Shown here piece after piece: positions 1-38,399 of a DNA stretch of 64,000 bases. The translations under genes were made by a program, and so were the position numbers. The stretch is from Lamellibrachia columna (Eukaryota > Annelida > Polychaeta > Sabellida > Siboglinidae). The notes under the pieces are model-generated. The model saw only the letters and a list, made by a program, of their open reading frames with translations, was not told where the DNA came from and did not search any database. The stretch is taken from assembly GCA_963662155.1 (NCBI GenBank), contig OY759274.1, positions 19,053,060 to 19,117,059 of the forward strand. Reading direction: 5' to 3'. Position 1 is the stretch's first letter. Each line of letters starts with the position of its first letter.

Positions 1-1370
1 GTGCACTTGCCCCGACTGACCTGCATGGTGCACTTGCCCCGACTGACCTGCATGGTGCACTTGCCCCGACTGACCTGCATGGTGCACTTGCCCCGACTGA
101 CCTGCATGGTGCACTAGCCCCGATTGACCTGCATGGTGCACTTGCCCCGACTGACCTGCATGGTGCACTTGCCCCGACTGACCTGCATGGTGCACTAGCC
201 CCGACTGACCTGCATGGTGCACTTGCCCCGACTGACCTGCATGGTGCACTAGCCCCGACTCACCTGCATGGTGCACTTGCCCCGACTGACCTGCATGGTG
301 CACTTGCCCCGACTGACCTGCATGGTGCACTAGCCCCGACTGACCTGCATGGTGCACTTGCCCCGACTGACCTGCATGGTGCACTTGCCCCGACTGACCT
401 GCATGGTGCACTTGCCCTGACTGACCTGCATGGTGGACTTGCCCGGACTGACCTGCATGGTGCACTTGCCCCGACTGACCTGCATGGTGCACTTGCCCCG
501 ACTGACCTGCATGGTACACTTGCCCCGACTGACCTGCATGGTGCACTTGCCCCGACTGACCTGCATGGTGCACTGGCCCCGACTGACCTGCATGGTGCAC
601 TTGCCCCGACTAACCTGCATGGTGCACTAGCCCCGACTGACCTGCATGGTGCACTAGCCCCGACTGACCTGCATGGTGCACTTGCCCCGACTGACCTGCA
701 TGGTGCACTTGCCTCGACTGACCTGCATGGTGCACTTGCCTCGACTGACCTGCATGGTGGACTTGCCCGGACTGACCTGCATGGTGCACTTGCCCCGACT
801 GACCTGCATGGTGCACTTGCCCCGACTGACCTGCATGGTACACTTGCCCCGACTGACCTGCATGGTGGACTTGCCCGGACTGACCTGCATGGTGCACTTG
901 CCCCGACTGACCTGCATGGTGCACTTGCCCCGACTGACCTGCATGGTACACTTGCCCCGACTGACCTGCATGGTGCACTTGCCCCGACTGACCTGCATGG
1001 TGCACTTGCCCCGACTGACCTGCATGGTGCACTTGCCCCGACTAACCTGCATGGTGCACTAGCCCCGACTGACCTGCATGGTGCACTTGCCCCGACTGAC
1101 CTGCATGGTGCACTAGCCCCGACTGACCTGCATGGTGCACTTGCCCCGACTGACCTGCATGGTGCACTTGCCCCGACTGACCTGCATGGTGCACTTGCCC
1201 CGACTGACCTGCATGGTGGACTTGCCCGGACTGACCTGCATGGTGCACTTGCCCCGACTGACCTGCATGGTGCACTTGCCCCGACTGACCTGCATGGTGC
1301 ACTTGCCCCGACTGACCTGCATGGTACACTTGCCCCGACTGACCTGCATGGTGCACTTGCCCCGACTGCC
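1..1370. repeat. 27-bp minisatellite, about 50 copies, continuing past the left edge
   Basis: Near-perfect 27-bp units (gtgcacttgccccgactgac plus ctgcatg) fill the window from base 1 and stop at the last exon seen of the minus-strand gene TBCK. On that strand every unit contains CAG|GTCAGT, a consensus-like 5' splice site. The array starts about five bases inside the intron. Because 27 is a multiple of three, long open frames of 9-residue repeats run on both strands; they are not genes. Unit variants (for example cactag, ggacttgcccgg) recur at intervals, so there is higher-order structure. Confidence 0.97.
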
Positions 1371-1373
1371 CAC

Positions 1374-1479: not shown

Positions 1480-4400
1480 CTCGGAACTGTGCCGCGCATG
1501 AAGCTGGGAGTGGGTTAAGGACAGTGAGATCAGAAGTCAAATACAACACAAATGTCAGCATTGGTGAAGGATATGTAGGTGGAATATGAGAAAGTTCTCA
1601 ATCTCACAGAGGACGTTAGGTAAATGGAACAATGGAAAAAATTATCTACTGATAATAGTTATCTACTGTAAATAGTCATAGTGTGAACATAATGAGAATA
1701 AAATTTTGAGATATCTGATAAGGGCGAGCTATACACAGATTGGACTCTTATTGGACTCTCGATAAGCAAATGGCTTCCTTGTCCACTTGCCAGCTTTCTA
1801 ATAAAGGTAACTTCTTACATAGCTCATTGTCCAGTCCTTAGGACTGTTCAAAGCACTACACACTTCACATCTGTTCACTCTAATGCCAAGTAGACTTCTC
1901 TGGGAAGCATTCAGCCATGCTGTGTTACTGTGTCCCTCAATGCAATGTGCTGGACAGGGAAATTAGAAAATGAGTGCGCTGAGAGGGAGAGAAAGAGGGG
2001 GAGGGGGCGGGAGGGAGGGAAAAATTAAATTTTTGACTAGTATCAAACAAAATCCATACACATATAGAATGATGTAAGTGTATATAGTCAATGGAGACTC
2101 ACTAAGACAGCATATATATAATAAGTAAGTGATGTGATGTTACCTTGCCTTGGCAATGAAGCCACGCAAATGTATACAAGATATTTGATAAAGAACTAAA
2201 CTCAGTAACCCTGTTCAAACTGATGAGGTTATTTGCAATGGAGTCAAACCATGATACAGCTGTGTGTTGTTTGGTGTTATAGCTGTGTGTTGTTTGGTGT
2301 TAGAGCTGTGTGTTGTTTGGTGTTAGAGCTGTGTGTTGTTTGGTGTTAGAGCTGTGTGTTGTTTGGTGTTAGAGCTGTGTGTTGTTTGGTGTTAGAGCTG
2401 TGTGTTGTTTGGTGGTTAGAGCTGTGTGTTGTTTGGTGTTAGAGCTGTGTTGTTTGGTGTTAGAGCTGTGTGTTTTTTGGTGTTAGAGCTGTGTGTTTTG
2501 GTGTTAGAGATTTGTGTTGTTTGGCGTTAGAGCTGTGTGTTGTTTGGTGTCATAGCTGTGTGTTGTGTGGTTTTATAGCTGTGTTGTTTGGTGTTGCAGC
2601 TGTGTGTTGTTTAGTGTTAGAGCTGTGTGCTGTTTGGTGCTAGAGCTGTGTGTTGTTTGGTGCTAGAGCTGTGTGTTGTTTGGTGCTATAGCTGTGTGTT
2701 GTTTGGTGTTAGAGCTGTGTGTTGTTTGGTGCTAGAGCTGTGTGTTGTTTGGTGTTATAGCTGTGTGTTGTTTGGTGTTAGAGCTGTGTGTTGTTTGGTG
2801 TTAGAGCTGTGTGTTGTTTGGTGTTAGAGCTGTGTGTTGTTTGGTGTTAGAGCTGTGTGTTGTTTGGTGGTTAGAGCTGTGTGTTGTTTGGTGTTAGAGC
2901 TGTGTGTTGTTTGGTGTTAGAGCTGTGTGTTGTTTGGTGTTAGAGCTGTGTGTTGTTTGGTGTTAGAGCTGTGTGTTGTTTGGTGTTAGAGCTGTGTGTT
3001 GTTTGGTGTTAGAGCTGTGTGTTGTTTGGTGGTTAGAGCTGTGTGTTGTTTGGTGTTAGAGCTGTGTTGTTTGGTGTTAGAGCTGTGTGTTTTTTGGTGT
3101 TAGAGCTGTGTGTTTTGGTGTTAGAGATTTGTGTTGTTTGGCGTTAGAGCTGTGTGTTGTTTGGTGTCATAGCTGTGTGTTGTGTGGTTTTATAGCTGTG
3201 TTGTTTGGTGTTGCAGCTGTGTGTTGTTTAGTGTTAGAGCTGTGTGCTGTTTGGTGCTAGAGCTGTGTGTTGTTTGGTGCTAGAGCTGTGTGTTGTTTGG
3301 TGCTATAGCTGTGTGTTGTTTGGTGTTAGAGCTGTGTGTTGTTTGGTGCTAGAGCTGTGTGTTGTTTGGTGTTATAGCTGTGTGTTGTTTGGTGTTAGAG
3401 CTGTGTGTTGTTTGGTGTTAGAGCTGTGTGTTGTTTGGTGTTAGAGCTGTGTGTTGTTTGGTGTTAGAGCTGTGTGTTGTTTGGTGGTTAGAGCTGTGTG
3501 TTGTTTGGTGTTAGAGCTGTGTGTTGTTTGGTGTTAGAGCTGTGTGTTGTTTGGTGTTAGAGCTGTGTGTTGTTTGGTGTTAGAGATGTGTGTTGTTTGG
3601 TATTAGAGCTGTGTTACATGTTCACAACATAACATACTGAATTAAACATCTAGACGTACTTTACTGAACATTTAGTCTTATTCAAGGTAGGAATACAGAT
3701 AACACAGTAATTTACAACATTCAGCATCCACTGAATCACCATCACATCACCATGGCAACTGGCAGTGTCTCCAAGGATACTCATCATAACTGCGCACATC
3801 GACCACAAGTATGCGTGGCTTTGTGTACCGGGTGCGTTTACTTGGGTTCTGACCATTGGTTGCCCCTAGCAACCCACAGAGGTCAAGCAAGTCCTCGGCC
3901 GAGATGTGCGGACAGACTTCGTTCTTGAGCTCCTCCAGGGGGACGGCGTCCATCGACTGCAACATTTACACATTAAATGCGTGATTATTTTATTGTCGTA
4001 GCAACACTCTTTGACATTATAACACAACTTTTATTAACATATCCAACTGTTTAAATGTAGAGACTTTCATCGTCTTTCCAAGAAGGCTTCTTCAGTACAT
4101 TTGATGTCCTGGTAGGATGACGTCATCCTACCAGGATGTACTGAAGAAGCCATCTTGGAAAGACGATGAAAGTCTCTACATCTAAACTGTAGGATATGTT
4201 AATAAAACTGTTATTACGAAAATTAACTGAATGAAAAAACACTCTTTGGCATTGAGCAATTTGTGAATGCAGAATCTGATGCTTTTTTAAATTTGTAACT
4301 GTGTAGGATGAAATTTTTAATTATAAACATATAATGTTCATGTTTATTTTCTCACCAGTTCCGCCTCGCCCAGGTTACTGAGCTGTCGGAGGAAGAGGGT

Positions 4401-7400
4401 ATGTTCACTGCTGATGTTGCTATCCTTTGTCGTCTTCCTCCTAGGTGTTGGTTTTGCATGCTGTCGGTAGGTGGCGCTCTTTGGTGTACCACAGAAAATT
4501 CGGACCGAATCAGAAACACATCGATCGATGGCTATTTCTGCAAAAACAACAATGTAGACCATGTGAGTTGTTGGTGCAAGGAGGTCTTGCAAACACATCA
4601 ATGTAGACCATGTAGTTGTTGATGCAAGGAGTTCTTACAAACACAGCAATGTAGAGTGTGAGTTGTTGGTGCAAGGAGTTCTTGCAAACACAGCAATGTA
4701 GAGTGTGAGTTGTTGGTGCAAGGAGGTCTTGCAAACACATCAATGTAGACCATGTAGTTGTTGATGCAAGGAGGTCTTACAAACACAGCAATGTAGAGTG
4801 TGAGTTGTTGGTGCAAGGAGGTCTTACAAACACAGCAATGTAGAGTGTGAGTTGTTGGTGCAAGGAGGTCTTACAAACACAGCAATGTAGAGTGTGAGTT
4901 GTTGGTGCAAGGAGGTCTTACAAACACATCAATGTAGAGTGTGAGCTGTTGGTGCAAGGAGGTCTTACAAACACAGCAATGTAGAGTGTGAGTTGTTGGT
5001 GCAAGGAGGTCTTACAAACACAGTAATGTAGAGTGTGAGTTGTTGGTGCAAGGAGTTCTTACAAACACAGCAATGTAGAGTGTGAGTTGTTGGTGCAAGG
5101 AGGTCTTACAAACACAGCAATGTAGAGTGTGAGTTGTTGGTGCAATGAGTTCTTACAAACACAGCAATGTAGAGTGTGAGTTGTTGGTGCAAGGAGTTCT
5201 TACAAACACATCAATGTAGACCGTGTAGTTGTTGGTGCAAGGAGGTCTTACAAACACAGTAATGTAGAGTGTGAGTTGTTGGTGCAAGGAGTTCTTACAA
5301 ACACATCAATGTAGATGGTGTAGTTGTTGGTGCAAGGAGTTCTTACAAACACAGCAATGTAGAGTGTGAGTTGTTGGTGCAAGGAGGTCTTACAAACACA
5401 TCAATGTAGAGTGTGAGTTGTTGGAGCAACGAGTTCTTACAAACACATCAATGTAGACGGTGTAGTTGTTGGTGCAAGGAGTTCTTACAAACACAGCAAT
5501 GTAGAGTGTGAGTTGTTGGTGCAAGGAAGTCTTACAAACACAGTAATGTAGAGTGTGAGTTGTTGGTGCAAGGAGTTCTTACAAACACAGCAATGTAGAG
5601 TGTGAGTTGTTGGTGCAAGGAGGTCTTACAAACACAGCAATGTAGTGTGAGTTGTTGGTGCAAGGAGTTCTTACAAACACATCAATGTAGACCGTGTAGT
5701 TGTTGGTGCAAGGAGGTCTTACAAACACAGTAATGTAGAGTGTGAGTTGTTGGTGCAAGGAGTTCTTACAAACACAGCAATGTAGAGTGTGAGTTGTTGG
5801 TGCAAGGAGTTCTTACAAACACATCAATGTAGACCGTGTAGTTGTTGGTGCAAGGAGGTCTTATAAACACATCAATGTAGATGGTGTAATTGTTGGTGCA
5901 AGGAGTTCTTACAAACACAGCAATGTAGAGTGTGAGTTGTTGGTGCAAGGAAGTCTTACAAACACAGTAATGTAGAGTGTGAGTTGTTGGTGCAAGGAGT
6001 TCTTACAAACACAGCAATGTAGAGTGTGAGTTGTTGGTGCAAGGAGGTCTTACAAACACAGCAATGTAGTGTGAGTTGTTGGTGCAACGAGTTCTTACAA
6101 ACACATCAATGTAGACGGTGTAGTTGTTGGTGCAAGGAGTTCTTACAAACACAGCAATGTAGAGTGTGAGTTGTCGGTGCAAGGAGGTCTTACAAACACA
6201 TCAATGTAGAGTGTGAATTGTTGGTGCAAGGAGGTCTTACAAACACATCAATGTATACCATGTAGTTGTTGGTGCAAACTGCTGGAAGTGATACATTATA
6301 CTATAAACTAGAGAAACCAGTGTCTTTGGGATTGAATGTGGAGTGGTCCATTACATTTGGTGCTCTTCCACCTGCCCTGTCACAGTAAAATCAACAACTT
6401 TTACCGATTTCTAAATAGTTTTATGAAAAATTATTCAAAAGTGCAGTATTTTTCAGTCAGAAACAGATGGCCGTTCATTTACAAATATTACAGTAATAAT
6501 AAAGTTTTTTTTCTAAAAATATTACAGTAATAAATCACAAAAAGAAATTCCAGAACACATAATAAAAAAACTGCCTTACCTGGCATATCTGAGAAGAGTA
6601 ATATGCACTCATTGAACCCGTATGAGAGAAGTTGGTCCCGCAGTTGCTGCAGGATGGCGACACCGATGCAGAGTGGGAATGAACTGCCGCCAAGTAACAA
6701 TGTGTCCCAGAGGTGGAAGATCTTGTGTAGAGGGAAGACGTCTGGGAAACAACAAAGTGTAGAGTGAGTGGGAACAAGTCTAGGAGACAACAAGGTATGG
6801 ATTGAGTGGGGACACGTCTGAGAGACAACAAGGTACAGAATGAGTGAGAACACGTCTGATAGACAACAAGGTATGGAATGAGAGGTAACATGTCTGGGAG
6901 ACAACAAGGTACGGAATGAGTGGGAACACGTCTGGGAGACAAGGTACGGAGTGAGTGGGAACACATCTGGGAGATGACAGGGTACAGAGTGAATGGGAAC
7001 ATGTCTGTGAGGCAACAAGGTACAGAGTGAGTTGAAAGTCTTTTATGTTTATTATTTTCTTGCTGCAGCTTTTGTCTTAGTGTCTTTTGTCTTAATGTCT
7101 TTTGCCTTAGTGTCTTTTGTCTTAATGTCTTTTGTCTTAGTGTCTTTTGTCTTAATGTCTTTTGTCTTTTGTCTTAATGTCTTTTGTCTTAATGTCTTTT
7201 GTCTTAATGCTTTAGTACAGCTAAATAGTTTTAATTTATCTGTCGTACATTTTTATGTTTGTGATGTGTTGTCATAACATAAGATCTAACAAATAACATT
7301 CACCAGACAAATGTACACAATGACTCAATGAGGTAGATTATAGCTAACTTAAATGTGTTAAGTTATAGCTAACTTACACAAGTACATCGTGTGTGAAGTC

Positions 7401-28400: not shown

Positions 28401-31400
28401 CTCTCCAAACATCTCTCCCTCTTGGAGCACATAACTAAAACACAAGAATACTTCTCTCCAAACATCTCTCCCTCTTGGAGCACATAACTAAAACACAAGA
28501 ATACTTCTCTCCAAACATCTCTCCCTCTTGGAGCACATAACTAAAACACAAGAATACTTCTCTCCAAACATCTCTCCCTCTTGGAGCACATAATTAAAAC
28601 ACAAGAACACTTCTCTCCATACATCTCTCCCTCTTGGAGCACATAACTGAAACACGAGAACATTTCTCTACGAACATCTCTCCCTCTTTGAGCACATAAC
28701 TGAAACACAAGAACACTTCAGTGGAAGCTGAACAGGAATAATAAAATATTCATCTTCCTAAATGATGTAAACTGTAACAACATCAGTCCAATGCAGCAGT
28801 TAAACAATCAGTCCAATGCAGCAGTTAAACAATCTGCAAAATGAAATGTTGACTTTTATTAATGCATTCGGAAAATGGCCCTACTGGACAATGGACATAC
28901 CGAACCCTGACATTAAAATATTCTTCATGAATCACGATTTAGCAAGATTGATTTAACAAGATTGACACCCAAACCAAAACACCCAGATGGCAAGTGGACA
29001 AGGAATGCACTGGCTAATTAAGAGTCCAACAATTCTTTATTGACGTGTAACCCACCCCTCTGAGACATTTGTCAATTTTTTTTTAACATATTCACATTGC
29101 TAGCATTTACACAATCAGTGGATAACTTGTTCCAATAAGAGGGTAGCTTTGAACAACCATGTACTATGATAGACAAGTGAGGTTAATACAGGTGTAATGG
29201 GAAGCTTGGAGGGGATGAGAAATGGGTCCTCACTTGGTGAGGTTGGTGATGGGATGGTGGGGATGAGCAATGGGTCCTTACTTTGTGAGGTTGATGATGG
29301 GATAGTGGGGATGAACAATGGGTCCTCACTTGGTAAAGTTGATGATAGGATGGTGGGGATGAGCAATGGGTCTCACCTGGTGAGGTTAATGATGGGATGG
29401 TGGGGATGAGCAATGGGTCTCACCTGGTAAGGTTAATGAAGGGAAGATGAGCAATGGGTCTGACCTAGTGAGGTTAATGATGGGATGGTGGGGATGCACA
29501 ATGGGTCTGACCTGGTGAGGTTAATGATGGTCTGACCTGGTGAGGTTGATGAGTGGATGGTGGGGATGAGCAATGGGTTTCATCGGGTGAGGTTTATGAT
29601 TGGATGGTGACCAATGGGTCTCACCTGGTGAGGTTGATGATGGGATGGTGGGGATGAGCAATGGGTTTCACTAGGTGAGGTTGATGATGGGATGGTGGGG
29701 GTGAGCAATGGGTTTCACCTGGTGAGGTTGATTGTGGGATGGTGGGGATTAGCAATAGGTCTCACTGGGTAAGGTTGATGATGGGATGGTGGGGATGAGC
29801 TAGGGTCTCACCTGGTGAGGTTGATGATGGGATGGTAGAGATGAGCAATGGTTATCACCTGGTGAGATTGATGATGGGAGGTTTGGTGGGGATGAGTCCC
29901 TCCCTCCTGAGGGTTGTCTCCAGGTCTCCTCCGGTCAGCTGCCACAGGTAGTACACCTCATTGATTCCTCTCTCTCCCAACAGATCCACAGGCGTTTCTT
30001 CTGGACAGAAACATAAAAACACCATTTTATGGTATCATAAATACAATATATATTTCCTAAATCCTCAACCTCAGAAGTGCATCACAGAAAACACTGGGAG
30101 CAATCTCAATAGATGATAATAAAAATAATTATATTTTAGCACTGTTGTATTTTAAGCGCCTTTATATTCCTGAAACATAGCGGAGCCACGTCATCGACGT
30201 TTCTGTTGCGACTCATGTGGTTGAGAGATGGAGTCCACAGTAGGTTACACATTTACCCCCGTGTGGGATTTTTTACTTCCCCTGGCATAGACACCAGGTA
30301 GAAGGGCCCTCAAATAAGTCATGCACTCCTACAACTAAGTTAATGAGGCCCGACTAAAGCTGCTAATGACTATGGTTATTATCTTGGTGTGATACCCCTG
30401 CTTTGGCAACTGTGAATGTTTTTGAAAAAAAAAGAACTTAGTTAATTAGACTGACAACTGGCATAAATGCTTAGCATTGTGATGCAGCCCCTTCCCAGAA
30501 TACCTCTGTCATCCCTCACACTCGCCAGTTCAAGGTCAGCACATCGCAGCCTCACAGAGAACATGTCGTAGCCATTGGATGGTGGAATCTGTCAAAAGAA
30601 CAAAAACAGACGTCATCTCCATATTGGAGAAAAAACATTCTAAAAACCTTGTAATAATTTTGTAATAAAATGATAATAAACGATAATTGCACATACCTAA
30701 TGTTGCACTTTATACACAGTCAGGTGTATAATTCATAAATCTTTGTAAAGTTGTGCTGCAAAGATTAGGTTTTAAACTTTTACCTTGCACCTCTTGAAAT
30801 CACTGAATAATGAAGAACTCAGAAGTTCTGTTGGGTTCTTTCTGAAAAAGAAGACGTTTTTGCTGATAAAATAATCTGCCTTAATTGAGTATTTACTCTG
30901 GTCAGACATGATCCCACAACACTAGAGTTATAAAAATTAGTGGTATAAACTCTGCACTGGGAACAACTATTTATGCACTTTTTCTTTTTATAAGGCACAC
31001 AATGTATATGTCTATTAGTTTTGTTATAAAATATTAATGATGTTACATTCATTTTAATGGAAGTTCTCTTGGTCCCCTCCTCTGTGTTAGTGTGAGCTGT
31101 TCTCTGGAGTCACACTTACACTGAGGAAGGGACCGATAGGGTTCCAAAAGATACATTGAGCACTTACTGGACACTCTACGGTGTCACACTATCACTGAGG
31201 AAGGGACCGAGAGTTCCAAAAGATCCGTTGAGCACTTACTGGACACTCTATGGTAGCTACATGTCCCTTAAAATTAATGTAACATCATAAATATTGATTT
31301 ATATATTTTTTATAACACAATTAATAAACATTGTAACAGTATGCCTTATATAATGAACATAAACCCTCTGTAGAGAAAATCACTAACAAAGTTTGTAAAC

Positions 31401-34400
31401 CTCCACGAGGTTGCCAAGAACAGCTGTTCTCTGTAAAACTCACCTTTTGCTAGGAGACAGCAAGAAACATTGGCGAAGAAAACTGACAAACTCTGGAATG
31501 ATTTCCTGTAAAAAATATATTAATATGCATTCACACAAAGTGTACTTTATTGATTCAGCATATTTGTTTTTGGTACACATATTTATATGTTTTGTATGAT
31601 TATATATAAGTTGCAGGCATTGTTATTGTTGGTAACAACGGGTCATTAAATTGAAACGATGTAACAAGTAATCAAAGGGATTACCTGAGGAAATAAATGA
31701 TTTAAAATAAAAAATCTTATTACTACTATTATCATTATCATTATCAAGTAAATCTGGCTGTTTACCTTCATTCTTGCCTCTAAGTTGTGCTCTTTTATAA
31801 TCAAATCCAGAGGATGTGCATCTACAAAGCAATAGCATTTTAATAACAAGATTTAACAAGATTGCCATCCAAGATAAAGGTCCAGTTGGCAAGTGGACAG
31901 GGTGCCATTGGATTATTGAGTCCAACAATAGAGTTCAACAATTCTTTAATATATAAAATAATTCTCCTTCCCCTTCGTCCTATTTGATCTCTCCTAAAGA
32001 ATACATATCCAGTCAGTCCTAACTCAGCACCTGCTATGTCTTTGTTGGCCCAAGATTTGGCTATACCTATTACGTGGGGGTCAATATATCTTATTTACTA
32101 TGAGTGCATTTAAACACACGCACATTTAAAACCAGCTTAACAAATTTTTTCCAGACATTTGTTGCTGGTTTGAGTGTACTAGTGGCTTCTTGTAACTGAA
32201 ATAGCATTAATAAACCAGTTAGGTCAATGAAACTGCAGGTGTATCATAAACTCATTTACATCTGAAAATGACAGTTGTTTGGGAGTTTGGAGACTCAAGA
32301 CAGCAATAAGAATGTCTGAGAAGGATCACTTCTTTATAGCTGCACATGTCATGGGAGCGGTGGTCTAATGGTTAGAGCACCTGCCTGTCGATTGAGAGGA
32401 CGGTGGTTCGATTCCACCTCCGCTGTTTCGAAGCTTGGGTAATTTCATTCACACCACTTTGCCCGTGTCTTTCGGAAGAGACACTAAAAGCCGTTGGTCC
32501 AAACTCCTGCGTTAGCTCAAGATTGGGCTGTTTGGAGTATAACTACTTGAGACTTGAGGAGCTACTAGTGAGGACAACTTTTGGCAGTGGAAGATTGACA
32601 ACATAAATACACAGGCCTCAAGAGAGATCTCCCCAAAATCTATGTAGAACTGTTGCCAAGTGCCTAGTAAGGGTCAAAGGTTGACACTGAATGTGAAAAC
32701 CACTACAAAGTGTACCTGTTTGAATGAAGTTCAATATCCGTCCAATCTGTTGTTGCAGTGACAGTGTGGCCCACAATGGTCTCCCCTGCAAAAAGAGAAA
32801 CATCTGCCAGTGAGCTCACATGAATCAAATCAGCTGCCAGTGAGCTCACATGAATCAAATCAGCTGCCAGTGAGCTCACATGGATCAAATCATCTGCCAG
32901 TGAGCTCACATGGATCAAATCACCTTCACAAATACTGACACACAAAAACAGTATGTCCTGTATAATATCTTAAAGGTGCTTAATCATTTAAATTCTTCCA
33001 CTTGTCTTGTTCACAAATCATTTTGCAAAAAATCAAATGTATCTTGTATCCACTATGACATGCTAGCTATAGTACCCACTATGACATGCTAGCTCTAGTA
33101 TCCACCATGACATGCTAGCTCTAGTATTCACTATGACATGCTACTTCTAGTATCCACTATCACATGCTAGCTCTAGTATAAACAATGACATGCTAGCTTA
33201 TTTGTGCAAATGTTTTATTTAGTTTTAATGAAATTATCAAAGAAACTATTAAATATTTTTTATAGGACTTGGTCCAAATTTGACAAAAAGAGCAACAGTG
33301 ATCCAGTTCCATACACTATAACATAAGGTTATCTCATGTCACTGTTATATAGTTCCATACACTATGACATAAGGTTATCTCATGTCACTGTTATACAGTT
33401 CCATACACTATGACATAAGGTTATCTCATGTCACTGTTATACAGTTCCATACACTATGACATAAGGTTATCTCATGTCACTGTTATATAGCAGCATGTTA
33501 ATTCACAGTTTTTACCGGGTGCTATGATTATTACTATGATTATTACAATCATAGCCCCCCAATTAAAAACAAGGCTGGTGACCTGTCTGATAACAACAAC
33601 TACTGACCCACTGCTCTCGCCACAATTGCTAGTAAATTATTTGAATGTTTGATACAATCCAGGGTTTCCATTTTTTTTAACTACATGTGTAAACCAAAAC
33701 AAAAAGCACTACTGAACTGAAATGCTCATATTTTAATTAAATGAACTTTTTCGACACTACATAGCAAATGGATCATCTATATATGTCACCATGTTGGATG
33801 CCTCTAAAGCCTTTGACAAAGTCAACCATAGTAAACTATTCACTAAACTAATTGACCTGGGCTGTCCTTTTATTGTGAACTCAGAAATTCACTGTCAGAT
33901 GGTGTCGCAGCTTCGCTGAATTTTTTACCATTTCAAACGGTGTTAAACAGGGTGGAATCCTTTTTCCTCATCTTTTTAACATGTACATGGATGACTTAAG
34001 TGTAAATCTGAACAAACTATAAATATGTTGTCTTTATGCAGGCAACATAATGAGCCATATGATATATGCTGATGATCTATGTGTGTTTACCTAGTGTTTC
34101 TGGGCTAAGAAAACTCCCCAATTGTTATGCCAAGTACAACAATATGTTTGATATAACTTACAATGCTAACAAATATTACTGTATGGTTATTGATAACAAA
34201 CCTCAGTACAAGAAAAATATTCACCCTGTTGCTGTCAATAACCATACACTACTTCACACTAAGAAATGTAAATACCTTCTTCATATTATCAACTATAACC
34301 TCACTGACAATGATGATATTGCCAGGCAGAAAAGATGTATTTAAGCTCAGGCAAATGTTTTAGCCAGAAAATTTCACTTATGCAGCAGCACCATTAAAAC

Positions 34401-37400
34401 AACTTTATTTAATTCATACTGTGGTACTGTGTACACCTCAAGTCTTTGGTGTAATTTAAAAAAACAGAGTCTGAAAGGCATTGTTCTTGCATATAACAAC
34501 AGTTTTAGAACTGTATGGGGTGACAAGACTTGTCACCTCATTGTAGTGCAAATTATATGTTTGGTACAAATTATGTAAAATCTTTTAATTAACGTATTCG
34601 CTTGTCAATATTTAGCCTTTCATGCTGTTTAGAAAGGTCTGATAATCTTTTTGTGAATTATTTTCACACTTTTATTAACTACAGAAGTCCAATGATTAAA
34701 TACTGGATTGGTCAATTGTATACTTTTAATACATGACATGCGTGTATATTTAATTTTTTTTATTCTTTCTACATGAACTTTTAATGAACAACATGTGTGT
34801 ATATTTATACATATTTTTACTTGTATGTATATATATATATATATGGACTTTTGTCTAAAAAAAACATTATTATTATAAACTGACTGCGTATAGTATTTAC
34901 GCTATTCACACACAACGCTTTGAAAATTATCAATGGGCTCAATGAGTAGAGGAAGGTAGAGTAAACACACAATAGACACTATCCACACCTGACACTTGGA
35001 GAGTAAACACACCATAGACACTATCCACACCTGACACTTGGAGAGTAAACACACAATAGACACTATCCACACCTGACACTTGGAGAGTAAACACACCATA
35101 GACACTATCCACACCTGACACTTGGAGAGTAAACACACAATAGACACTATCCACACCTGACATTTGGAGAGTAAACACACCATAGACACTATCCACACCT
35201 GACACTTGGAGAGTAAACACACCATAGACACTATCCACATCTGACACTTGGAGAGTAAACACACCATAGACACTATCCACACCTGACACTTGGAGAGTAA
35301 ACACACCATAGACACTATCCACACCTGACACTTGGAGAGTAAACACACAATAGACACTATCCACACCTGACACTTGGAGAGTAAACACACCATAGACACT
35401 ATCCACACCTGACACTTGGAGAGTAAACACAACATAGACACTATCCACACCTGACACTTGGAGAGTAAACACACCATAGACACTATACACACCTGACACT
35501 TGGAGAGTAAACACAACATAGACACTATCCACATCTGACACTTGTAGAGTAAACACACCATAGACACTATACACACCTGACACTTGGAGAGTAAACACAA
35601 CATGGACACTATCCACACCTGACACTTGGAGAGTAAACACACCATCGACACTATCCACACCTGACACTTGGAGAGTAAACACAACATGGACACTATCCAC
35701 ACCTGACACTTGGAGAGTAAACACAACATGGACACTATCCACACCTGACACTTACCAAGATGGCTTCCACCAGAATAATTCCAAGTGACCAAACATCAAC
35801 CTTGGGCCCACAAGGGGGCAGCACCTGTTGGTCTGTCACTGCATTGATGTTCGCTGCATGCCCAGGCGCAAGGGCAAGTACTTCAGGAGCCATGTAGCGG
35901 GGGGAACTACAAACATTACACAGCACATTTGGGGGGCAACTCATATATTTCTGAATGTTCTCTGTTGTCATGGATAGCCCTCACACAAGTTTTAATTACT
36001 TTATAAAATCCCTTCAGTGTCATCTTGCAGCATTTGCAAAATAGGAAATAATTACATTCTTTCTAGAGCTTCTGCCGTCTGCGTTTGTGTGAAACATTAT
36101 TAAATTTGTGGTTACATTTATAATAAAGCACTTTATATCAGTAATAAACAATTCTGTTCAGAGGCGCATCAGTGCAGGACTGATAAAATGTAACAACGAA
36201 CATAATAAAAAAATCTTTTGACTATTGTCATAACCAGACTCGTAAAACATAGGAGACAAATACAAGTGGCGTCTAGCACCACCGACACACACAGCACAGA
36301 GAACGGGGTGGGAATAGATTTTTTCTAAATCTTCAAAAATCTTACAAGACATGTGCCTTCTATTGCCTAATGGTAGTTATGGTACTATACACAGTAAACT
36401 TATTTGATGTAAAATATATATGTATACGTAATAAGTATATATCTATGAGCCCACCCACTTACCCGACTGGGAACGCGACTGTCGTGCCGTGGTCAGTCAT
36501 GTGATACATGCCATACTTGGCCAACTTCACGCTCCCCTGGAGGCAAAACAACACATTAGTTGCTGGTCTTGTGGGAATTAGTCTTGCAGGGATTAATTAA
36601 TCTTGTTGTATGTTTCACAAAGCCAGGTGAATGTCAAAAAACAATAATTTGTTTACATTTCCTTGAACAATGAAGCATTGATATTTAAACAAGTGTTGAT
36701 AATGATAGACTTATTGGAGAGAACCAATTAATAGCAGCATTGATTGACATGTGACAGTTCCTTGTGTTCACAGACATTCTGTATGTCCTACTTAAAAGCA
36801 ACCAGTGTGAATATGTTCAAAAATAAAAATGACAGACATCTGATAAGGTGAGCTACACATAAATTGTGACACAAGGCGTGGGTCATGGGTGACTTGGGTG
36901 TCTTGTTGGCAGGATAACCAAGGATCTAAGATGGTGACATGTTGGCATCTTGAACACGTAATGCGAGGCGTACATTACTAAACTTTTAGTCGCACGTTTG
37001 TGGGACTGGGTCAGTGCACATTACACTACATTTGTTGCAGTGATTCAATTTTCTAGTTGGTTCAGCAAGTGTTGCGCCGGCCAAATCAACACGCGACCCA
37101 GGTTTTGTTGAGTTGCAGACATAGCGCAACTGATCAGTTTTATGTCAAATAAACACACAATTCGCAACACAAGTTTAGCAATGTACACCTGGCAATATGG
37201 AAACAGTAACTGTTGCTGACAAGTTAATGTCTGCACTTAAAGCAAGTGACACCTACAGAGAGACTCTGTGGTGACTGCCAAGTAGTGGTGAACTCACGGC
37301 TGTGTCCAGGAGCACATTATGTGCTGACAGGTTGTGGTGGATGATTCCCTCTTGGTGTAGGTGATCCAGACCTTCAAGGACACCATATGCCAGCCGCCTC

Positions 37401-38399
37401 AACAGGCTGCCATCACTACAAACAAATTAACATTACTATAAATACAGCATTAATGCTTATTTGTCGATATCTTACATTGTAATGGTTCTTACAACTGGCA
37501 TCAACAAATCCCCAAAACAAAATAAGGTTCAAAATAATATGTAAATTCTGCTAACACATTTATGCAGTTATCCAATAATTGCATGATCACAATGCCTCAT
37601 AGTCCACTGATTTGGTGAATAAAAAAAATAAAAAAACATACAACAAATTCCTAATGTACAGGGGTGTATGTCATAAACTTTTAATTACTTAGCAATTACA
37701 AGCTAAATTATAATGTCAATCAGTAGTCAAGAGGTAGTCAATATCAGAGTAGACCAATTTCAAAACCACTCACTCGTCTCTGTATTGGCCCACCCTGATT
37801 GCTGCTGCCACGTTGCCATGGTGATGCTCAGACACAACAATTACTCGTTCTGAAACACAGAACAAACATACTCTGTCAGTACAAAGAAATGCTGTTATGA
37901 AACGAAATTGATTAGAACTGAAAATATAGTGTAAATTGTGACAAAATAAGTATGTACACACAGAGTTACATTTTCAAAAGAAACAAAGTTCCCTTTAAAA
38001 TAGTTGTTTTTAAATATTTATTATTAATATTTTAAAATAAACCATAATTTTGGTAGCCAAAAAGATTTTCTCACAAGCCAATCAAACATAAATAATGTCA
38101 TCATTAGTCTCTAATGTTACAACTGGAATACAAATGGAGGACTTTGACAGACACTGACACCGACAGGCACTGACACTGGCAGACATTGACATAGACAGAC
38201 ACTGACCGTGCTGACATCTGACTAGATCCAGGTACTGACACAGCCTCGCATGGACAATCTTCTTGAGCTTCTGGAAGTTGCCCAAGATCTTGATGGAGTT
38301 TGGGGTGAGGGGTAGGCCATTCGCCCCACACCCGTCATTTGGGTGCTGTGATGCGCAGAATGTGAATGCACCCAGCTGAGCTTTCCCAAGTGGCTTCAT
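1374..38399 (-). CDS. TBCK: TBC domain-containing protein kinase-like (TBCK), 24 coding exons seen, last exon(s) outside the window
   Basis: Family role: TBCK is a cytoplasmic protein with an N-terminal pseudokinase, a TBC Rab-GAP domain and a C-terminal rhodanese domain; it is linked to mTOR signalling and endolysosomal traffic. Coding exons: 38399-38207, 37849-37774, 37415-37298, 36536-36463, 35906-35756, 32785-32716, 31821-31766, 31505-31444, 30841-30784, 30588-30504, 30000-29859, 22059-21960, 21502-21453, 20221-20113, 17164-17030, 16518-16456, 15734-15557, 14734-14651, 13937-13852, 9286-9250, 6741-6580, 4537-4356, 3956-~3751, ~1479-1374. GT-AG junctions and phases agree throughout except at the last junction, where the donor is ambiguous. 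About 860 codons are present; the human protein has about 893. The kinase catalytic residues are lost (HHNLSAHN for HRD, KYG for DFG) while MAPEV and DVWSLG remain. Both TBC finger motifs are intact (IEVDVPR, YWQG). No frameshift or internal stop was found, so the gene looks functional. The final ~50-60 codons of the rhodanese domain are to the left. AIMP1 is the head-to-head neighbour. Confidence 0.95.
1580..1815 (+). mobile_element. CR1-type LINE, 3'-end fragment
   Basis: Resembles the 3' end of the CR1 copies at 9.5-13.5 kb: the end of the reverse-transcriptase frame (ctcacagaggac, then aaatggaacaa), then the shared tail (gatatctgataagggcgagc, then ggactctcgataag and the tail motif for subtracting the insert from host DNA). 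The stretch 1816-2250 is plain intron with a GA-rich run near 1985-2020. Confidence 0.75.
2255..3615. repeat. 23-bp minisatellite in a TBCK intron, about 58 copies, with an internal 617-bp duplication
   Basis: Units of agagctgtgtgttgtttggt plus gtt are repeated with scattered variants (ggtggtt, tgttttttgg, gcgttagag). The same order of variants appears twice, offset by 617 bp (for example 2627 and 3244), so a block of about 27 units was duplicated as a whole. It sits in the intron between TBCK coding exons 23 and 24, 136 bp from the nearer exon. I see no splice-junction homology in its unit. Confidence 0.96.
3751..3956 (-). CDS. TBCK: TBCK coding exon 23: rhodanese domain, start
   Basis: Begins after tgcag and encodes [20 protein letters not shown] and then [15 protein letters not shown], the conserved linker and first strand of the TBCK rhodanese domain. 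The 3' end is ambiguous: donors at 3751 (gtgatg) or 3760 (gttgcc) both give phase 2 but differ by three codons around the conserved His. Confidence 0.88.
4025..4216. mobile_element. Foldback (MITE-like) inverted repeat
   Basis: A near-perfect palindrome centred on ggtaggatgacgtcatccta (4111-4130). The two arms, each about 90 bp, pair with only a few mismatches and small indels; the outer arms read ttattaacatatcc and ggatatgttaata. It sits wholly inside the 399-bp intron between TBCK coding exons 22 and 23. The shape fits a non-autonomous DNA transposon. No target-site duplication could be assigned. Confidence 0.85.
4356..4537 (-). CDS. TBCK: TBCK coding exon 22: end of the TBC domain and linker
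   Basis: Encodes [20 protein letters not shown] followed by [10 protein letters not shown], a highly conserved TBCK block, then a variable linker ending in LGEAEL before gtgaga. The acceptor is tttttgcag|AA; immediately upstream of it lies the 47-bp array. Confidence 0.95.
4540..6290. repeat. 47-bp minisatellite abutting a TBCK acceptor, about 36 copies
   Basis: On the gene strand the units end in gtgtttgcaag or gtgtttgtaag, directly comparable to the real acceptor gttgtttttgcag of coding exon 22. The preceding ctacattg is also shared between the intron end and the units. The array therefore appears to have grown out of the 3' splice-site region. Some units vary at accgtg/gagtgtgag positions and these variants recur in blocks. 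Confidence 0.95.
6580..6741 (-). CDS. TBCK: TBCK coding exon 21: TBC domain
   Basis: Encodes [18 protein letters not shown], then [12 protein letters not shown] and [11 protein letters not shown]. This is one of the best conserved stretches of the TBC domain in TBCK. The acceptor is ttgtttcccag|AC and the donor is CCAG|GTAAGG. Confidence 0.97.
6735..7030. repeat. 38-bp minisatellite copying a TBCK splice acceptor, about 7 copies
   Basis: On the gene strand the units read ttgttgtctcccag|ACGTGT followed by TCCC. This is a close copy of the true junction ttgttgtttcccag|ACGTCT of coding exon 21, including the first 10-15 coding bases. Each unit thus repeats polypyrimidine tract, AG and exon start. 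The copy nearest the exon is the one used by the coding frame. Confidence 0.93.
7060..7212. repeat. 15-18 bp tandem repeat, about 10 copies
   Basis: Alternating tgtcttttgtcttag and tgtcttttgtcttaat blocks lie just beyond the acceptor-copy array in the same intron. No gene is seen here. Confidence 0.9.
7325..8125. repeat. 36-bp minisatellite related to a TBCK splice donor, about 22 copies
   Basis: Units of about 36 bp (agtcatagctaacttacata then agtacatagtgtgtta). Read on the gene strand they carry ATGTAC-n-GTAAGTT and then a TGACT block, matching in order the end of TBCK coding exon 20 and its donor (ATGTACGCCC|GTAAGTT, then TGACTC). Degenerate units at about 9155-9235 connect the array to that exon. 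The interval 8126-9150 holds no gene or repeat that I recognise. Confidence 0.85.
9250..9286 (-). CDS. TBCK: TBCK coding exon 20 (37-bp micro-exon): TBC domain
   Basis: Encodes [12 protein letters not shown] between ttttcag and gtaagt; the conserved IPWFLTM stretch identifies it. At 37 bp it is the smallest coding exon of the gene. Its donor side resembles the 36-bp repeat units nearby. Confidence 0.95.
9500..11250 (+). mobile_element. CR1-clade LINE, degraded copy A
   Basis: A broken ORF2. The end of the endonuclease domain contains [11 protein letters not shown] and [10 protein letters not shown]. Reverse-transcriptase pieces follow: a degraded SGIPQGSV block, a frame with FADD-type spacing, then [16 protein letters not shown] and [14 protein letters not shown]. 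Many stops and an internal deletion make it inactive. Its 3' tail meets the tail of copy B, so the two lie tail to tail inside one TBCK intron. Confidence 0.92.
11230..13500 (-). mobile_element. CR1-clade LINE, longer degraded copy B
   Basis: Read on the minus strand: endonuclease residues ([20 protein letters not shown] at its start), the [18 protein letters not shown] block, then reverse transcriptase with [20 protein letters not shown] and KFADDTKVF, and the C-terminal [20 protein letters not shown]. Frames are interrupted, so it is not autonomous. The 3' end reaches the element tail near 11240. Confidence 0.93.
13852..13937 (-). CDS. TBCK: TBCK coding exon 19: TBC domain
   Basis: Encodes [20 protein letters not shown] followed by MNEIGFIPD, matching the conserved TBCK stretch ending in the IGFIPD motif. 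It is flanked by ttgtttcag and gtgagt. The intron 13500-13851 otherwise holds only AT-rich sequence. Confidence 0.96.
14040..14340. repeat. 21-bp minisatellite, about 14 copies
   Basis: Units of gtggagatcagtgatgggag plus a lie in the intron between TBCK coding exons 18 and 19. The open 7-residue-repeat frames on the plus strand are a by-product of the 21-bp period. No splice-junction homology is visible. Confidence 0.95.
14651..14734 (-). CDS. TBCK: TBCK coding exon 18: TBC domain
   Basis: Encodes [20 protein letters not shown] and KDNSAVIQ, matching the conserved IPKYLYNFFLKDNS region of human TBCK. The acceptor is cttcag and the donor gtcagt. Confidence 0.96.
14735..15556. other. TBCK intron, mostly unremarkable
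   Basis: The only repeat is about three copies of a ~27-bp unit (catgtcattctctcttgcga) near 14970-15055. Otherwise AT-rich intron with no gene seen. Confidence 0.7.
15557..15734 (-). CDS. TBCK: TBCK coding exon 17: TBC domain with both catalytic finger motifs
   Basis: Encodes [18 protein letters not shown], then [20 protein letters not shown] and [11 protein letters not shown]. The arginine finger (IxxDxxR) and glutamine finger (YxQ) of TBC Rab-GAPs are both present. This suggests GAP activity is retained, although the Rab substrate cannot be inferred. Confidence 0.98.
16190..16350 (-). mobile_element. tRNA-derived SINE fragment
   Basis: In reverse complement this matches the body of the SINE at 32353 (gctgtttcga, then cttgggtaatttt, then gtgtcttttggaagagacag). 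It continues into a different tail (ccaggggaagttaaagatca) that is shared with the fragment near 30240. The tRNA-like head is missing. Confidence 0.75.
16381..16466. repeat. 23-bp repeat of a TBCK splice donor, four copies
   Basis: On the gene strand four tandem units each read CAGACAGACAG|gtgagttcc then att. The first unit in transcript order is the true end of coding exon 16 and its donor (16456/16455). The three further copies are identical over exon end and donor, so four equal 5' splice sites stand 23 bp apart. Confidence 0.96.
16456..16518 (-). CDS. TBCK: TBCK coding exon 16: start of the TBC region
   Basis: Exactly 21 codons, [20 protein letters not shown] plus Q, matching the conserved YDAIDKDTP...TDRQ of human TBCK. 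The acceptor is gtttacag and the donor CAG|gtgagt. The donor is the first of four tandem identical copies. Confidence 0.97.
17030..17164 (-). CDS. TBCK: TBCK coding exon 15: linker into the TBC domain
   Basis: Encodes [20 protein letters not shown], then [20 protein letters not shown] and LLEVE. The [11 protein letters not shown] block is diagnostic for TBCK. 135 bp, phase 0 at both ends, between cccag and gtatga. Confidence 0.98.
17215..19575. repeat. 28-bp minisatellite, about 85 copies
   Basis: Units of acataacaagtcacataaca plus ttggtgtc, with a common variant ataatattgg and occasional half-unit deletions (acattggtgtcacataacattggtg). It starts about 50 bp upstream of the acceptor of TBCK coding exon 15. 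Recurring variant orders show several rounds of block duplication. No coding potential. Confidence 0.97.
19576..20112. other. TBCK intron without recognisable features
   Basis: Non-repetitive, AT-rich intron between the 28-bp array and coding exon 14. A 20-bp direct repeat around ggatccctatggggtcaagg occurs near 19745-19785. No gene seen. Confidence 0.7.
20113..20221 (-). CDS. TBCK: TBCK coding exon 14: linker between kinase-like and TBC domains
   Basis: A variable, polar segment ([15 protein letters not shown]) is followed by the conserved [13 protein letters not shown], matching LPLIIREKDTEYQ of human TBCK. Acceptor acccag, donor gtatgg. Confidence 0.96.
20318..20420. mobile_element. Possible DNA-transposon end
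   Basis: The string acagttaaacctcgctttaa followed by ggtcacctc resembles the termini of widespread invertebrate DNA elements, and a similar cagtaaaacct starts the short element at 62442. No matching inverted end was found here, so this is only a possible fragment. Confidence 0.35.
20565..21020. repeat. 22-bp minisatellite carrying a TACTAAC motif, about 20 copies
   Basis: Units of gaaggcaatgttagtagatg plus ga. On the TBCK strand each contains CTACTAACATTGCCTTCTCC, that is, a perfect branch-point consensus TACTAAC followed by pyrimidine-rich sequence. A second block of the same unit lies at 21295-21430, separated by ~270 bp of ordinary intron. Confidence 0.96.
21295..21435. repeat. Second block of the 22-bp TACTAAC repeat, about 6 copies
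   Basis: The same unit as 20565-21020. It ends about 17 bases downstream of the donor of TBCK coding exon 13, so it reaches almost to the exon. Confidence 0.93.
21453..21502 (-). CDS. TBCK: TBCK coding exon 13: linker
   Basis: Encodes [17 protein letters not shown], matching RLKDVGGEAFYPLLEDD of human TBCK, between ctttccag and gtatgt. 50 bp, phase 0 to phase 2. Confidence 0.93.
21960..22059 (-). CDS. TBCK: TBCK coding exon 12: linker; its start is the seed of the 53-bp array
   Basis: Encodes [20 protein letters not shown] followed by [13 protein letters not shown], matching FLFEDGESFG and RDRSSLLDDTTVTLSL of human TBCK. The acceptor tcttgtgttttag|T is the last of about 126 tandem copies of the same acceptor. 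The donor is CAG|gtgggt. A pyrimidine-rich stretch (21875-21955) follows the donor in the intron. Confidence 0.96.
22020..28720. repeat. 53-bp minisatellite copying a TBCK acceptor and exon start, about 126 copies
   Basis: On the gene strand each unit is about 16 bases of intron end (gttcttgtgttttag) followed by 37 bases that match the 5' end of coding exon 12 (encoding [12 protein letters not shown]). Variant units (t/c at ttcctctt, ata for aca, cccc for ctcc, a 5-bp insertion aaaac) recur in the same order about 2708 bp apart (23226 and 25934 regions), showing large block duplications. Because 53 is not a multiple of three, reading from any upstream copy meets a stop within about 35 codons. 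Confidence 0.98.
28950..29170 (-). mobile_element. CR1 LINE 3'-tail fragment
   Basis: Minus-oriented tail matching the end of copy B at 11240-11460: ttaacaagattgac, then cagatggcaagtggacaagg, then agagtccaacaattc and the ttcacattgctagcatttac block. Confidence 0.82.
29190..29880. repeat. 47-48 bp minisatellite copying a TBCK exon end and donor, about 14 copies
   Basis: On the gene strand the units read CCCATCATCAACCTCACCAG|gtgagacccattgctcatcc and then ccacc. The true junction of coding exon 11 is CCCATCATCAATCTCACCAG|gtgataaccattgctcatc. Each unit therefore repeats 20 coding bases plus the donor and 27 intron bases. The copies have CAG|gtgaga, closer to consensus than the real CAG|gtgata. 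Confidence 0.96.
29859..30000 (-). CDS. TBCK: TBCK coding exon 11: end of kinase-like domain and linker
   Basis: Encodes [20 protein letters not shown], then [10 protein letters not shown] and [16 protein letters not shown] and GGDLE are conserved in human TBCK. The exon end is the seed of the neighbouring donor array. Confidence 0.97.
30172..30312 (-). mobile_element. SINE tail fragment
   Basis: Shares gtaggttacac, cttcccctggcatagacacc and agaaggg with the minus-oriented fragment at 16185-16255. Only the 3' part is present. Confidence 0.55.
30504..30588 (-). CDS. TBCK: TBCK coding exon 10: end of kinase-like domain
   Basis: Encodes [20 protein letters not shown] then LASVRDDR, matching SLRCADLTLPEDI of human TBCK. 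Flanked by ttttgacag and gtattc. Confidence 0.95.
30784..30841 (-). CDS. TBCK: TBCK coding exon 9: kinase-like domain C-lobe
   Basis: Encodes [20 protein letters not shown] (the first codon is split), aligning with RPTPDQLMKDKVFSEV of human TBCK. Similarity is weaker than in other exons, but both splice sites (cttttttcag type, gtaaaa) and the phases fit. Confidence 0.85.
31100..31255. repeat. Two tandem copies of a ~78-bp sequence
   Basis: Two copies of a block containing ctgaggaagggaccga, gttccaaaagat and gagcacttactggacactct. Intronic, no coding potential. Confidence 0.8.
31444..31505 (-). CDS. TBCK: TBCK coding exon 8: kinase-like domain C-lobe
   Basis: Encodes [20 protein letters not shown] plus the first bases of R, matching DLLNKCLTFHPSKRP, the usual end-of-kinase-domain signature. 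Donor AG|gtgagt. Confidence 0.95.
31766..31821 (-). CDS. TBCK: TBCK coding exon 7: kinase-like domain C-lobe
   Basis: Encodes [19 protein letters not shown] (the first codon is split), aligning with TLIVLAEEHGCLDIIK. Flanked by ctttgtag and gtaaac. Low-complexity sequence, so identity rests on position, phase and the KEHN/EEHG match. Confidence 0.85.
31840..32095 (-). mobile_element. CR1 LINE fragment, tail joined directly to endonuclease part
   Basis: The element tail (ttaacaagatttaacaagat, then ggcaagtggacagg) runs straight into endonuclease-region sequence (tctttaatatataaaat, then gcccaagatttggctatacc) that in copy B lies about 2 kb away. An internal deletion removed the reverse transcriptase. 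Confidence 0.8.
32353..32600 (+). mobile_element. tRNA-derived SINE
   Basis: The head resembles a tRNA gene, with an A box at about 32361-32371 (tggtctaatgg) and a perfect B box at 32405-32415 (ggttcgattcc). The body (gggtaatttcattcacacca, then gtgtctttcggaagagacac) is shared with the fragment at 16190-16350. It is not a functional tRNA gene: I cannot fold a clean anticodon stem, and it is fused to the SINE body. Confidence 0.85.
32716..32785 (-). CDS. TBCK: TBCK coding exon 6: kinase-like domain C-lobe
   Basis: Encodes [20 protein letters not shown] then IQT, matching VGRKLFQSLDISERLKFLL. Acceptor ctttttgcag, donor gtacac. A 30-bp repeat begins about 20 bases upstream of the acceptor. Confidence 0.94.
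32800..32930. repeat. 30-bp tandem repeat, about 4.5 copies
   Basis: Units of ctgccagtgagctcacatga followed by atcaaatcag lie next to the acceptor of TBCK coding exon 6. The unit does not copy the junction. Confidence 0.92.
33050..33200. repeat. 26-bp tandem repeat, about 6 copies
   Basis: Units of atgacatgctagctctagta then tccact. A related single copy (actgcaacatgctagctcgt) occurs near 56980 in AIMP1, suggesting a dispersed element. Confidence 0.88.
33300..33490. repeat. ~49-bp tandem repeat, about 4 copies
   Basis: Units contain gttccatacactatgacata, then aggttatctcatgtcactgt and tatata. Intronic. Confidence 0.9.
33560..34690 (+). mobile_element. Non-LTR retrotransposon reverse-transcriptase fragment
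   Basis: Broken plus-strand frames show [37 protein letters not shown] and YADDL in the order expected of a reverse transcriptase, then a C-terminal part. Several stops and frameshifts. The family differs from the CR1 copies and matches the fragments at 42881 and 44830. Confidence 0.88.
34950..35755. repeat. 42-bp minisatellite starting at a TBCK donor, about 19 copies
   Basis: On the gene strand the array starts at the donor of coding exon 5: TTG|gtaagtgtcaggtgtgg runs directly into units of the form CTCCAAGTGTCAGGTGTGGA. The unit matches the intron from about donor position +3. The 42-bp period leaves two overlapping minus frames open for about 290 and 270 codons; these are by-products. 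Confidence 0.96.
35756..35906 (-). CDS. TBCK: TBCK coding exon 5: kinase-like domain, activation segment to helix F
   Basis: Encodes [20 protein letters not shown], an insert-like stretch, then [18 protein letters not shown]. The APE motif and the DVWSLG helix-F motif of protein kinases are intact. The upstream intron 35907-36462 holds nothing else that I recognise. Confidence 0.98.
36463..36536 (-). CDS. TBCK: TBCK coding exon 4: kinase-like domain, degenerate DFG region
   Basis: Encodes [20 protein letters not shown] then AFPV. KYG replaces the metal-binding DFG motif (human TBCK has KFG), so the domain is a pseudokinase. Flanked by gcctccag and gtaagt. Confidence 0.97.
36790..36875 (+). 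mobile_element. Short CR1 LINE 3'-end fragment
   Basis: Contains cagtgtgaatatgttcaaaa then gacagacatctgataaggtg and agctacacata, matching the end of CR1 copy A. Confidence 0.65.
37298..37415 (-). CDS. TBCK: TBCK coding exon 3: kinase-like domain, degenerate catalytic loop
   Basis: Encodes [20 protein letters not shown], then [19 protein letters not shown]. The HRD motif reads HHN, so the catalytic Asp is absent. The spacing to the NVLL segment matches human HRALSPHNILL. Confidence 0.98.
37774..37849 (-). CDS. TBCK: TBCK coding exon 2: kinase-like domain N-lobe
   Basis: Encodes [20 protein letters not shown] then GQYRD, matching ERLVVVAEHCERSLEDLL. Flanked by gtgtttcag and gtgagt. Confidence 0.95.
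38100..38206. repeat. Short imperfect repeat starting at the TBCK exon 1 donor
   Basis: On the gene strand the intron opens gtcagtgtctgtctatgtca and continues through about five degenerate ~12-18 bp copies, one of them again cagtgtctgtc. The repeat begins exactly at the donor of coding exon 1. Confidence 0.75.
38207..38399 (-). CDS. TBCK: TBCK coding exon 1: start of protein
   Basis: The ATG at 38399 starts [14 protein letters not shown], followed by [20 protein letters not shown] and [13 protein letters not shown], closely matching the N-terminus of human TBCK ([15 protein letters not shown]). A good acceptor (gttcctacag) ends at 38469, so the coding exon probably begins at 38468 and a non-coding first exon lies further right. 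The donor is CACG|gtcagt. Confidence 0.97.

Follow-up and report, generated by a model that had tools for sequence, protein, structure and literature searches.

Minisatellites that overlap exon-intron boundaries have been described in amphioxus under the name mirages, first in Adh3 and later in the globin genes BflGb6 and BflGb9, in troponin C and in PGBD5; the available passages of these reports also cite the retinol dehydrogenase and presenilin loci as having similar structures (PMC3087553, PMC3902484). According to the same passages, mirages in the globin and PGBD5 genes apparently leave splicing undisturbed, and the authors of the globin report suggest that intron gain draws on them (PMC3087553, PMC3902484). 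The boundary-overlapping amphioxus minisatellites to which a preliminary description of the present locus referred are real and identical with mirages. In the tubeworm genome studied here, arrays whose unit combines exon, splice site and intron of the adjoining authentic boundary were found at five junctions of TBCK and at nine junctions of other genes.

The window, a stretch of 64,000 nucleotides (C14:19053060-19117059), belongs to a genome of which we searched 879,693,805 bases in 30 contigs. Exons of TBCK were located by tblastn with a human TBCK sequence as guide. The resulting model comprises 24 exons in the window, from E1 (38399-38207) to E24 (1503-1344), with 23 complete introns, every one of them GT-AG, and a single open reading frame of 869 amino acids (855 before E24 was extended). 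Since the Lamellibrachia satsuma protein continues past the earlier end of E24, this end was set at 1344; the final exon, E25, lies just beyond the window edge (L009:6432-6325). Pfam detected kinase and TBC domains in the model. A protein search returned L. satsuma TBCK as the best listed match (96% identity, 89% query coverage), with 11 mismatches and two gaps over residues 1-757, and Capitella TBCK (60%) as the second-best listed match. AIMP1, on the plus strand of the window, is nearest to that of Ridgeia piscesae (78%), which like L. satsuma is a vestimentiferan tubeworm, that is, an annelid. The window therefore comes from a vestimentiferan closely related to L. satsuma, and not from amphioxus. 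A scan of prokaryote genomes with TBCK gave no relative. By eye, two stretches within TBCK introns (9489-13486 and 31843-34575) contain open reading frames resembling the reverse transcriptase/endonuclease of non-LTR retrotransposons. The parts of the gene that matter below are:

1344-38399, minus strand: TBCK, exons E1 to E24 in the window (tblastn-guided model and protein comparison)
38207-38399, minus strand: exon 1 (gene model)
35756-35906, minus strand: exon 5 (gene model)
29859-30000, minus strand: exon 11 (gene model)
21960-22059, minus strand: exon 12 (gene model)
16456-16518, minus strand: exon 16 (gene model)
6580-6741, minus strand: exon 21 (gene model)
4356-4537, minus strand: exon 22, its donor side single-copy in the window (gene model)
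1344-1503, minus strand: exon 24 (gene model and L. satsuma protein)

TRF yielded 75 rows for the window, and those within TBCK were merged into 29 arrays. Five of the 29 copy exon codons together with the splice site, at the donors of E11, E16 and E24 and at the acceptors of E12 and E21:

22023-28719, minus strand: E12 acceptor array, 53-bp unit of 17 nt from the 3' end of the intron and 36 nt of exon, 126 copies
1-1368, minus strand: E24 donor array, 27-bp unit (25 exonic nt and GT), present about 50 times within the window
29207-29879, minus strand: E11 donor array, unit of 47-48 bp with the exon end ...CACCAG followed by GTGAGA
16381-16466, minus strand: E16 donor array, 23-bp unit with CAGACAGACAG followed by GTGAGT, 3.7 copies
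6732-7032, minus strand: E21 acceptor array, 38-bp unit with CCCAG and 10 nt of exon, 8 copies

Written out, the E12 unit reads GTGTTCTTGTGTTTTAG followed by the 36 exonic nucleotides. The E24 unit is GTCAGTCGGGGCAAGTGCACCATGCAG, of which the exon supplies 25 of the 27 nt, GT alone being the share of the intron; this array extends past the window (in L009 from 6800) to a total of about 1.6 kb. The E16 repeat reads ...CAGACAGACAG GTGAGTTCCATT in tandem, and for the E11 unit the match to the exon continues outside the array. The TRF intervals overlap the exons by 37 bp (E12 acceptor), 25 bp (E24 donor), 21 bp (E11 donor), 11 bp (E16 donor) and 10 bp (E21 acceptor). Repetition of exon codons plus splice site had been proposed for the arrays at 22020, 29190, 16381 and 6735, and all four bore this out with overlaps of 37, 21, 11 and 10 bp, respectively. 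The array at position 1, noted earlier as being near a donor, proved a stronger case than claimed, given the E24 end at 1344.

Another three TBCK arrays stop no more than 3 bp short of a junction, namely at the E1 donor (0 bp), the E5 donor (2 bp) and the E22 acceptor (3 bp):

38146-38206, minus strand: array flush with the E1 donor, 16-bp unit GTCAGTGTCTGTC..., 3.8 copies; the unit also resembles the exon end
34958-35753, minus strand: array next to the E5 donor, beginning 2 bp into the intron, 19 copies of a 42-bp unit
4541-6277, minus strand: array stopping 3 bp short of the E22 acceptor, 36.8 copies of a 47-bp unit; an exon copy is unsupported

The next gaps are 6 bp (E17 acceptor), 10 bp (E12 donor, a low-complexity tract), 15 bp (E13 donor) and 18 bp (E6 acceptor), and the remaining 17 arrays lie at least 64 bp from the nearest junction. 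The preliminary description had placed arrays at 34950 and 38100 at or near a donor, in agreement with the distances at E5 and E1. It had also seen a looser likeness to the junction in the arrays at 4540 and 7325, and this was not supported: the unit of the former (4541) matched no junction better than chance (P = 0.985, arrays masked), and the latter (7354) lies 612 bp from the nearest junction with a non-significant resemblance to the E20 donor (P = 0.11). These values come from a comparison of units with junctions that covered 26 of the 29 arrays, with arrays masked and a control resampled from 400 windows. For 17 of the 18 tested arrays more than 3 bp from a junction, no junction likeness beyond chance was observed (P of 0.11 or more); the exception was the array at 15741-15785 with its 10-bp unit. 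Five units reached P = 0.000, three of which (15741, 16381 and 34958) best matched a foreign junction. The alignment of units to junctions that had been suggested as a check picked out the own junction for E11 and E1 and not for the others; given this poor discrimination and the matches to wrong junctions, unit-to-junction similarity was not relied on as a general test.

At the copied codons L. satsuma TBCK is identical, and partial agreement extends to TBCK of Capitella, Owenia and amphioxus. When two E12 units were searched against the genome, 59 of 59 matches among the best-scoring candidates fell inside the E12 array; this genome-wide search of the E12 unit gave no sign of the many unrelated loci expected of a dispersed satellite. 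Since the codons are conserved and the E12 unit is confined to its own array among the matches found, the array derives from the exon and not the reverse, as had been proposed. L. satsuma itself supplied a related case. Its predicted TBCK is 1181 amino acids long, the sole one above 960 among the best 120 listed, because one peptide is repeated 16 times, in 15 of the 16 copies followed by V-R/I-K. In the window this peptide forms the end of E22 and is present in one copy, and VRK corresponds to the start of the E22 donor GTGAGAAAA. The simplest reading is that the peptide repeat represents a 57-bp E22-donor array annotated as coding sequence. The E22 donor thus appears repeated in the predicted L. 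satsuma protein and single in the window, a species difference deduced from the protein. The L. satsuma annotation also places the E5 donor 12 nt downstream, inserting VSVR, at a CAGGTG that recurs in the window array 34958-35753; possibly, this shift is another annotation error caused by an array.

To compare the placement of arrays with a random one, the unit of each TBCK array was placed randomly, with arrays collapsed, under four versions of a null that assumes uniform seeding. Overlaps of at least 10 bp were seen for 5 of 29 arrays, compared with 1.26 expected over the whole gene (P = 0.006) and 1.98 over introns (P = 0.028); after removal of TE-like stretches, which were chosen by eye, the expectations were 1.94 (P = 0.037) and, in the strictest version, 2.27 (P = 0.053). 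Eight of the 29 lay over a junction or within 3 bp of it, where the four nulls predicted 2.19, 3.33, 3.31 and 3.77 (P = 0.0009, 0.0058, 0.012 and 0.016). With the array list tightened in two ways, to 19 arrays each time, 7 and 8 stood at junctions (P = 0.0001-0.008). All of these P values are after the fact, TBCK being the discovery set that was picked for its pattern. The seven arrays of AIMP1 indeed stay away from junctions (0 of 7, the nearest at 95 bp), as had been noted. Their use as a contrast failed, since only 0.46 were expected within 3 bp, and we regard AIMP1 as uninformative as a negative control. Long arrays are also present in the AIMP1 introns and in the DNA 3' of the gene (46786-61346), none of them at a junction, for example one at 49446-53725 with a 33-bp unit and 130 copies.

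Independent genes were sampled blind to repeats. Nineteen regions of 10 kb were fetched around exons matching the TBC domain, and PF00118 was used to find six CCT/HSP60 genes and part of a seventh. From 35 TBC matches 31 were used, two being TBCK itself and two (C4 and C8) being left out. Minisatellites are abundant in the TBC regions (L010-L028), where 121 arrays occupy 62,160 of 190,000 bp, or a third. A restriction of the pattern to TBCK was not supported, as nine more cases came to light in CCT3, CCT6, CCT7 (two), HSPD1 and four genes with a TBC domain:

L011: donor array, 39-bp unit, about 25 copies
L016: acceptor array, TRF period of 146 bp, about 14 copies
L023: acceptor array, 49 bp, about 22 copies, with codons for GYCQAMNT after GCAG
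L025:6086-10000 and L026:1-3937: acceptor array before a TBC exon, 48 bp, about 163 copies, 7.85 kb, the largest junction array found
CCT3: acceptor array, 55 bp, 13.8 copies
CCT6: acceptor array, 55 bp, 5.8 copies
CCT7: acceptor array, 96 bp, 2 copies
CCT7: donor array, 25 bp, 5.8 copies
HSPD1: acceptor array, 56 bp, 2 copies

The four TBC arrays overlap the TBC-coding exons by 32-60 bp and were checked by eye. No junction arrays were found in the covered exons of CCT4, CCT5 and CCT8. A second occurrence of the HSPD1 acceptor unit, flanked by the identical 16 bp, lies some 3 kb upstream within the gene (L031 around 3418 and 6424), which suggests an additional, larger duplication.

In the CCT set, 4 of 15 arrays were at junctions compared with 0.74 expected (P = 0.007), and in the TBC set 4 of 121 compared with 1.17 (P = 0.03). 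Pooled, the two sets gave 8 versus 1.91 (P = 0.0008) or, including CCT6, 9 versus 2.11 (P = 0.0003). Base composition was considered as a source of the excess (in TBCK, GC amounts to 0.517 in exons versus 0.350 in introns) and rejected, as GC weighting shifted the expectation by a factor of just 1.08, to 2.27 (P = 0.0006). With TBCK included, for which an expectation of 1.6 was entered by hand, 14 cases stood against 3.7-4.0 expected (P = 3e-5 to 7e-5). The claim that arrays favour junctions over random positions thus holds statistically both in TBCK and in the independently sampled genes. About 229 edges were sampled (47 + 62 + 107 + 13); the TBC edges are ends of Pfam hits and therefore inexact as exon ends, the 107 include two doubtful junction pairs (the first of CCT4 and the first of CCT5), and the 13 edges of L037 were entered by hand. 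L013:3673-3735, which covers 43 bp of a Pfam hit and stops short of the acceptor, was not counted, and L031:51-107, located in coding sequence, was kept and merely inflates the expectation. Five of the 14 cases are donors and nine are acceptors; in three the exon overlap amounts to no more than 10-11 bp, and two consist of just 2 copies.

Many array copies carry usable-looking splice sites. Scored with a small matrix built from the sites of TBCK itself, the E24 array contains within the window 46 donors equal in strength to the true donor, and in the E12 array 77 acceptors match or surpass the true one. Copies with an intact splice dinucleotide number at least 114 of about 125 for E12, 50 of 50 for E24 and at least 160 of about 163 for L025/L026. 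Over seven arrays no selection on the decoy dinucleotides was seen (mean rank of 0.46 versus other column pairs, P = 0.36); AG was mutated more than other columns at E12 (0.048 vs 0.019) and less at L026 (0.006 vs 0.053). Since conservation of the dinucleotides does not differ in either direction from that of other column pairs, the copies look neutral, as far as their sequence can tell. Joining the exon-proximal TBCK sites results in one open frame of 869 amino acids, which is consistent with undisturbed splicing, though short of proof.

Each of the five TBCK and nine other arrays sits at its own junction and runs into the intron, and the exon edge encodes conserved protein. We thus consider it very probable that all of them are boundary-spanning minisatellites of the mirage kind, grown from junction duplications that were tolerated in splicing. 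Such an array would start with a tandem duplication of about 20-150 bp across a junction through an error of repair or replication. The duplicate may be tolerated because one intact site beside the exon, presumably the one chosen in splicing, would keep the mRNA normal. The growth of minisatellites by unequal exchange or slippage is established in general, and by these routes the array could expand up to about 160 copies, selection preserving the exon edges and the array copies drifting. Flanking homology measures 1 bp at the CCT7 acceptor and, by eye, about 1 bp at HSPD1 (the script gave 2 at an earlier copy); at E12 the consensus unit has GAAG in common with the distal flank, and the actual distal copy has 0. 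A homology of about 1 bp in the two 2-copy cases, few as they are, is more in keeping with end-joining of staggered breaks, or a short duplication of that sort, than with slippage between repeats already present. Replication slippage, R-loops or repair at splice-junction sequence had been suggested as what seeds arrays at junctions and may be regarded as candidates; with 5 cases at donors and 9 at acceptors, the data do not speak for a cause specific to one type of splice site.

The junction excess itself could reflect a mutational bias or a longer survival of exon-anchored arrays. We put forward tentatively that vestimentiferan splice junctions are hot spots of tandem duplication. A junction-linked process would then seed arrays at donors and acceptors alike, at about 6% of junctions (14 of about 229); thousands of genes might carry dozens of intact decoys ignored by the spliceosome, and arrays might turn over between close species. 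Anchoring would explain the excess as survivorship: arrays are born anywhere, and those attached to an exon outlast the others, since large deletions would hit the exon. This accounts for the presence at donors and acceptors alike and also for the arrays at E1, E5 and E22, which stop 0-3 bp away from the junction and contain no exon codons; alone, it does not put exon codons into the unit, and we find it somewhat doubtful. Chance combined with purifying selection appears unlikely. Here duplications would be uniform, exonic ones would be lost and those at junctions would survive by position, with no junction preference. Given the very common arrays (121 over 62,160 of 190,000 bp), some hits are indeed expected (1.3-2.3 in TBCK and 2.1 in the other genes), and AIMP1, CCT4, CCT5 and CCT8 have none; nevertheless, 9 cases against an expected 2.1 in independent genes (P = 0.0003), or 14 against 3.7-4.0 including TBCK, exceed what it predicts.

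The other alternatives concern the nature of the arrays. Had the array come first and the exon edge later shifted into it, so that the exon was made from the repeat, the usable-looking splice sites of the copies would be accounted for; the copied codons, however, match conserved TBCK positions, in whole or in part, in L. satsuma, Capitella, Owenia and amphioxus, and this order of events is very improbable. A dispersed satellite or mobile repeat inserted next to exons might be suspected in a window with as many arrays as this one (75 TRF rows), yet every unit is built from its own exon edge and the E12 unit gave 59 of 59 matches in its own array among the best-scoring candidates, making this origin extremely improbable. 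Long arrays are hard to assemble and their copy numbers are unverified, so that an assembly error multiplying reads at junctions deserves mention; the copies, however, differ among themselves, many genes show the pattern, and a second species has it in the form of a repeated peptide, all of which leaves such an error scarcely credible.

The choice of the spliceosome among identical neighbouring sites is usually studied with few competing sites. Natural tests are on offer where a single exon is flanked by about 50 identical donors, as at E24, or by 126-163 acceptors that are nearly identical, as at E12 and in the TBC gene, and whether splicing follows a "nearest to exon" or a "first reached" rule could be read from long RNA of junction-array genes. 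Junction arrays also provide raw material for intron-gain models. They carry a warning as well: when in frame, they may be annotated as protein repeats, as which the 16-copy peptide of L. satsuma TBCK is best read.

Compared with the related phenomena in the available parts of the literature, the tubeworm arrays stand closest to mirages. In intron gain by tandem genomic duplication (Rogers model; potato RdRp, PMC4974935), the likeness lies in a tandem duplication over AGGT or splice-site sequence. The tubeworm junctions differ in belonging to existing exons that code for conserved protein: exon edges match the conserved protein of homologues, and no new intron was seen in the TBCK model. The intronic minisatellites of earthworm metallothionein (PMC12783039) are likewise tandem arrays in an annelid intron; the passages at hand describe monomers of about 180 bp in intron 1 and no junction copies, unlike the tubeworm arrays. 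Among titles, abstracts and passages, drawn largely from papers outside subscription, we recognised no report of the mirage kind outside lancelets. As far as the amphioxus reports could be consulted, the tubeworm arrays, known here from sequence alone, differ from mirages in occurring in an annelid, in numbering five in a single gene, TBCK, and in having their placement excess measured. Copy numbers reach about 126-163, as opposed to the 3 or 6 units given in those passages for amphioxus globin BflGb6. Junction arrays thus take mirages from lancelets to annelids, and the measured excess calls for a cause. The kind is known; the phylum, the scale and the measured junction excess are new.
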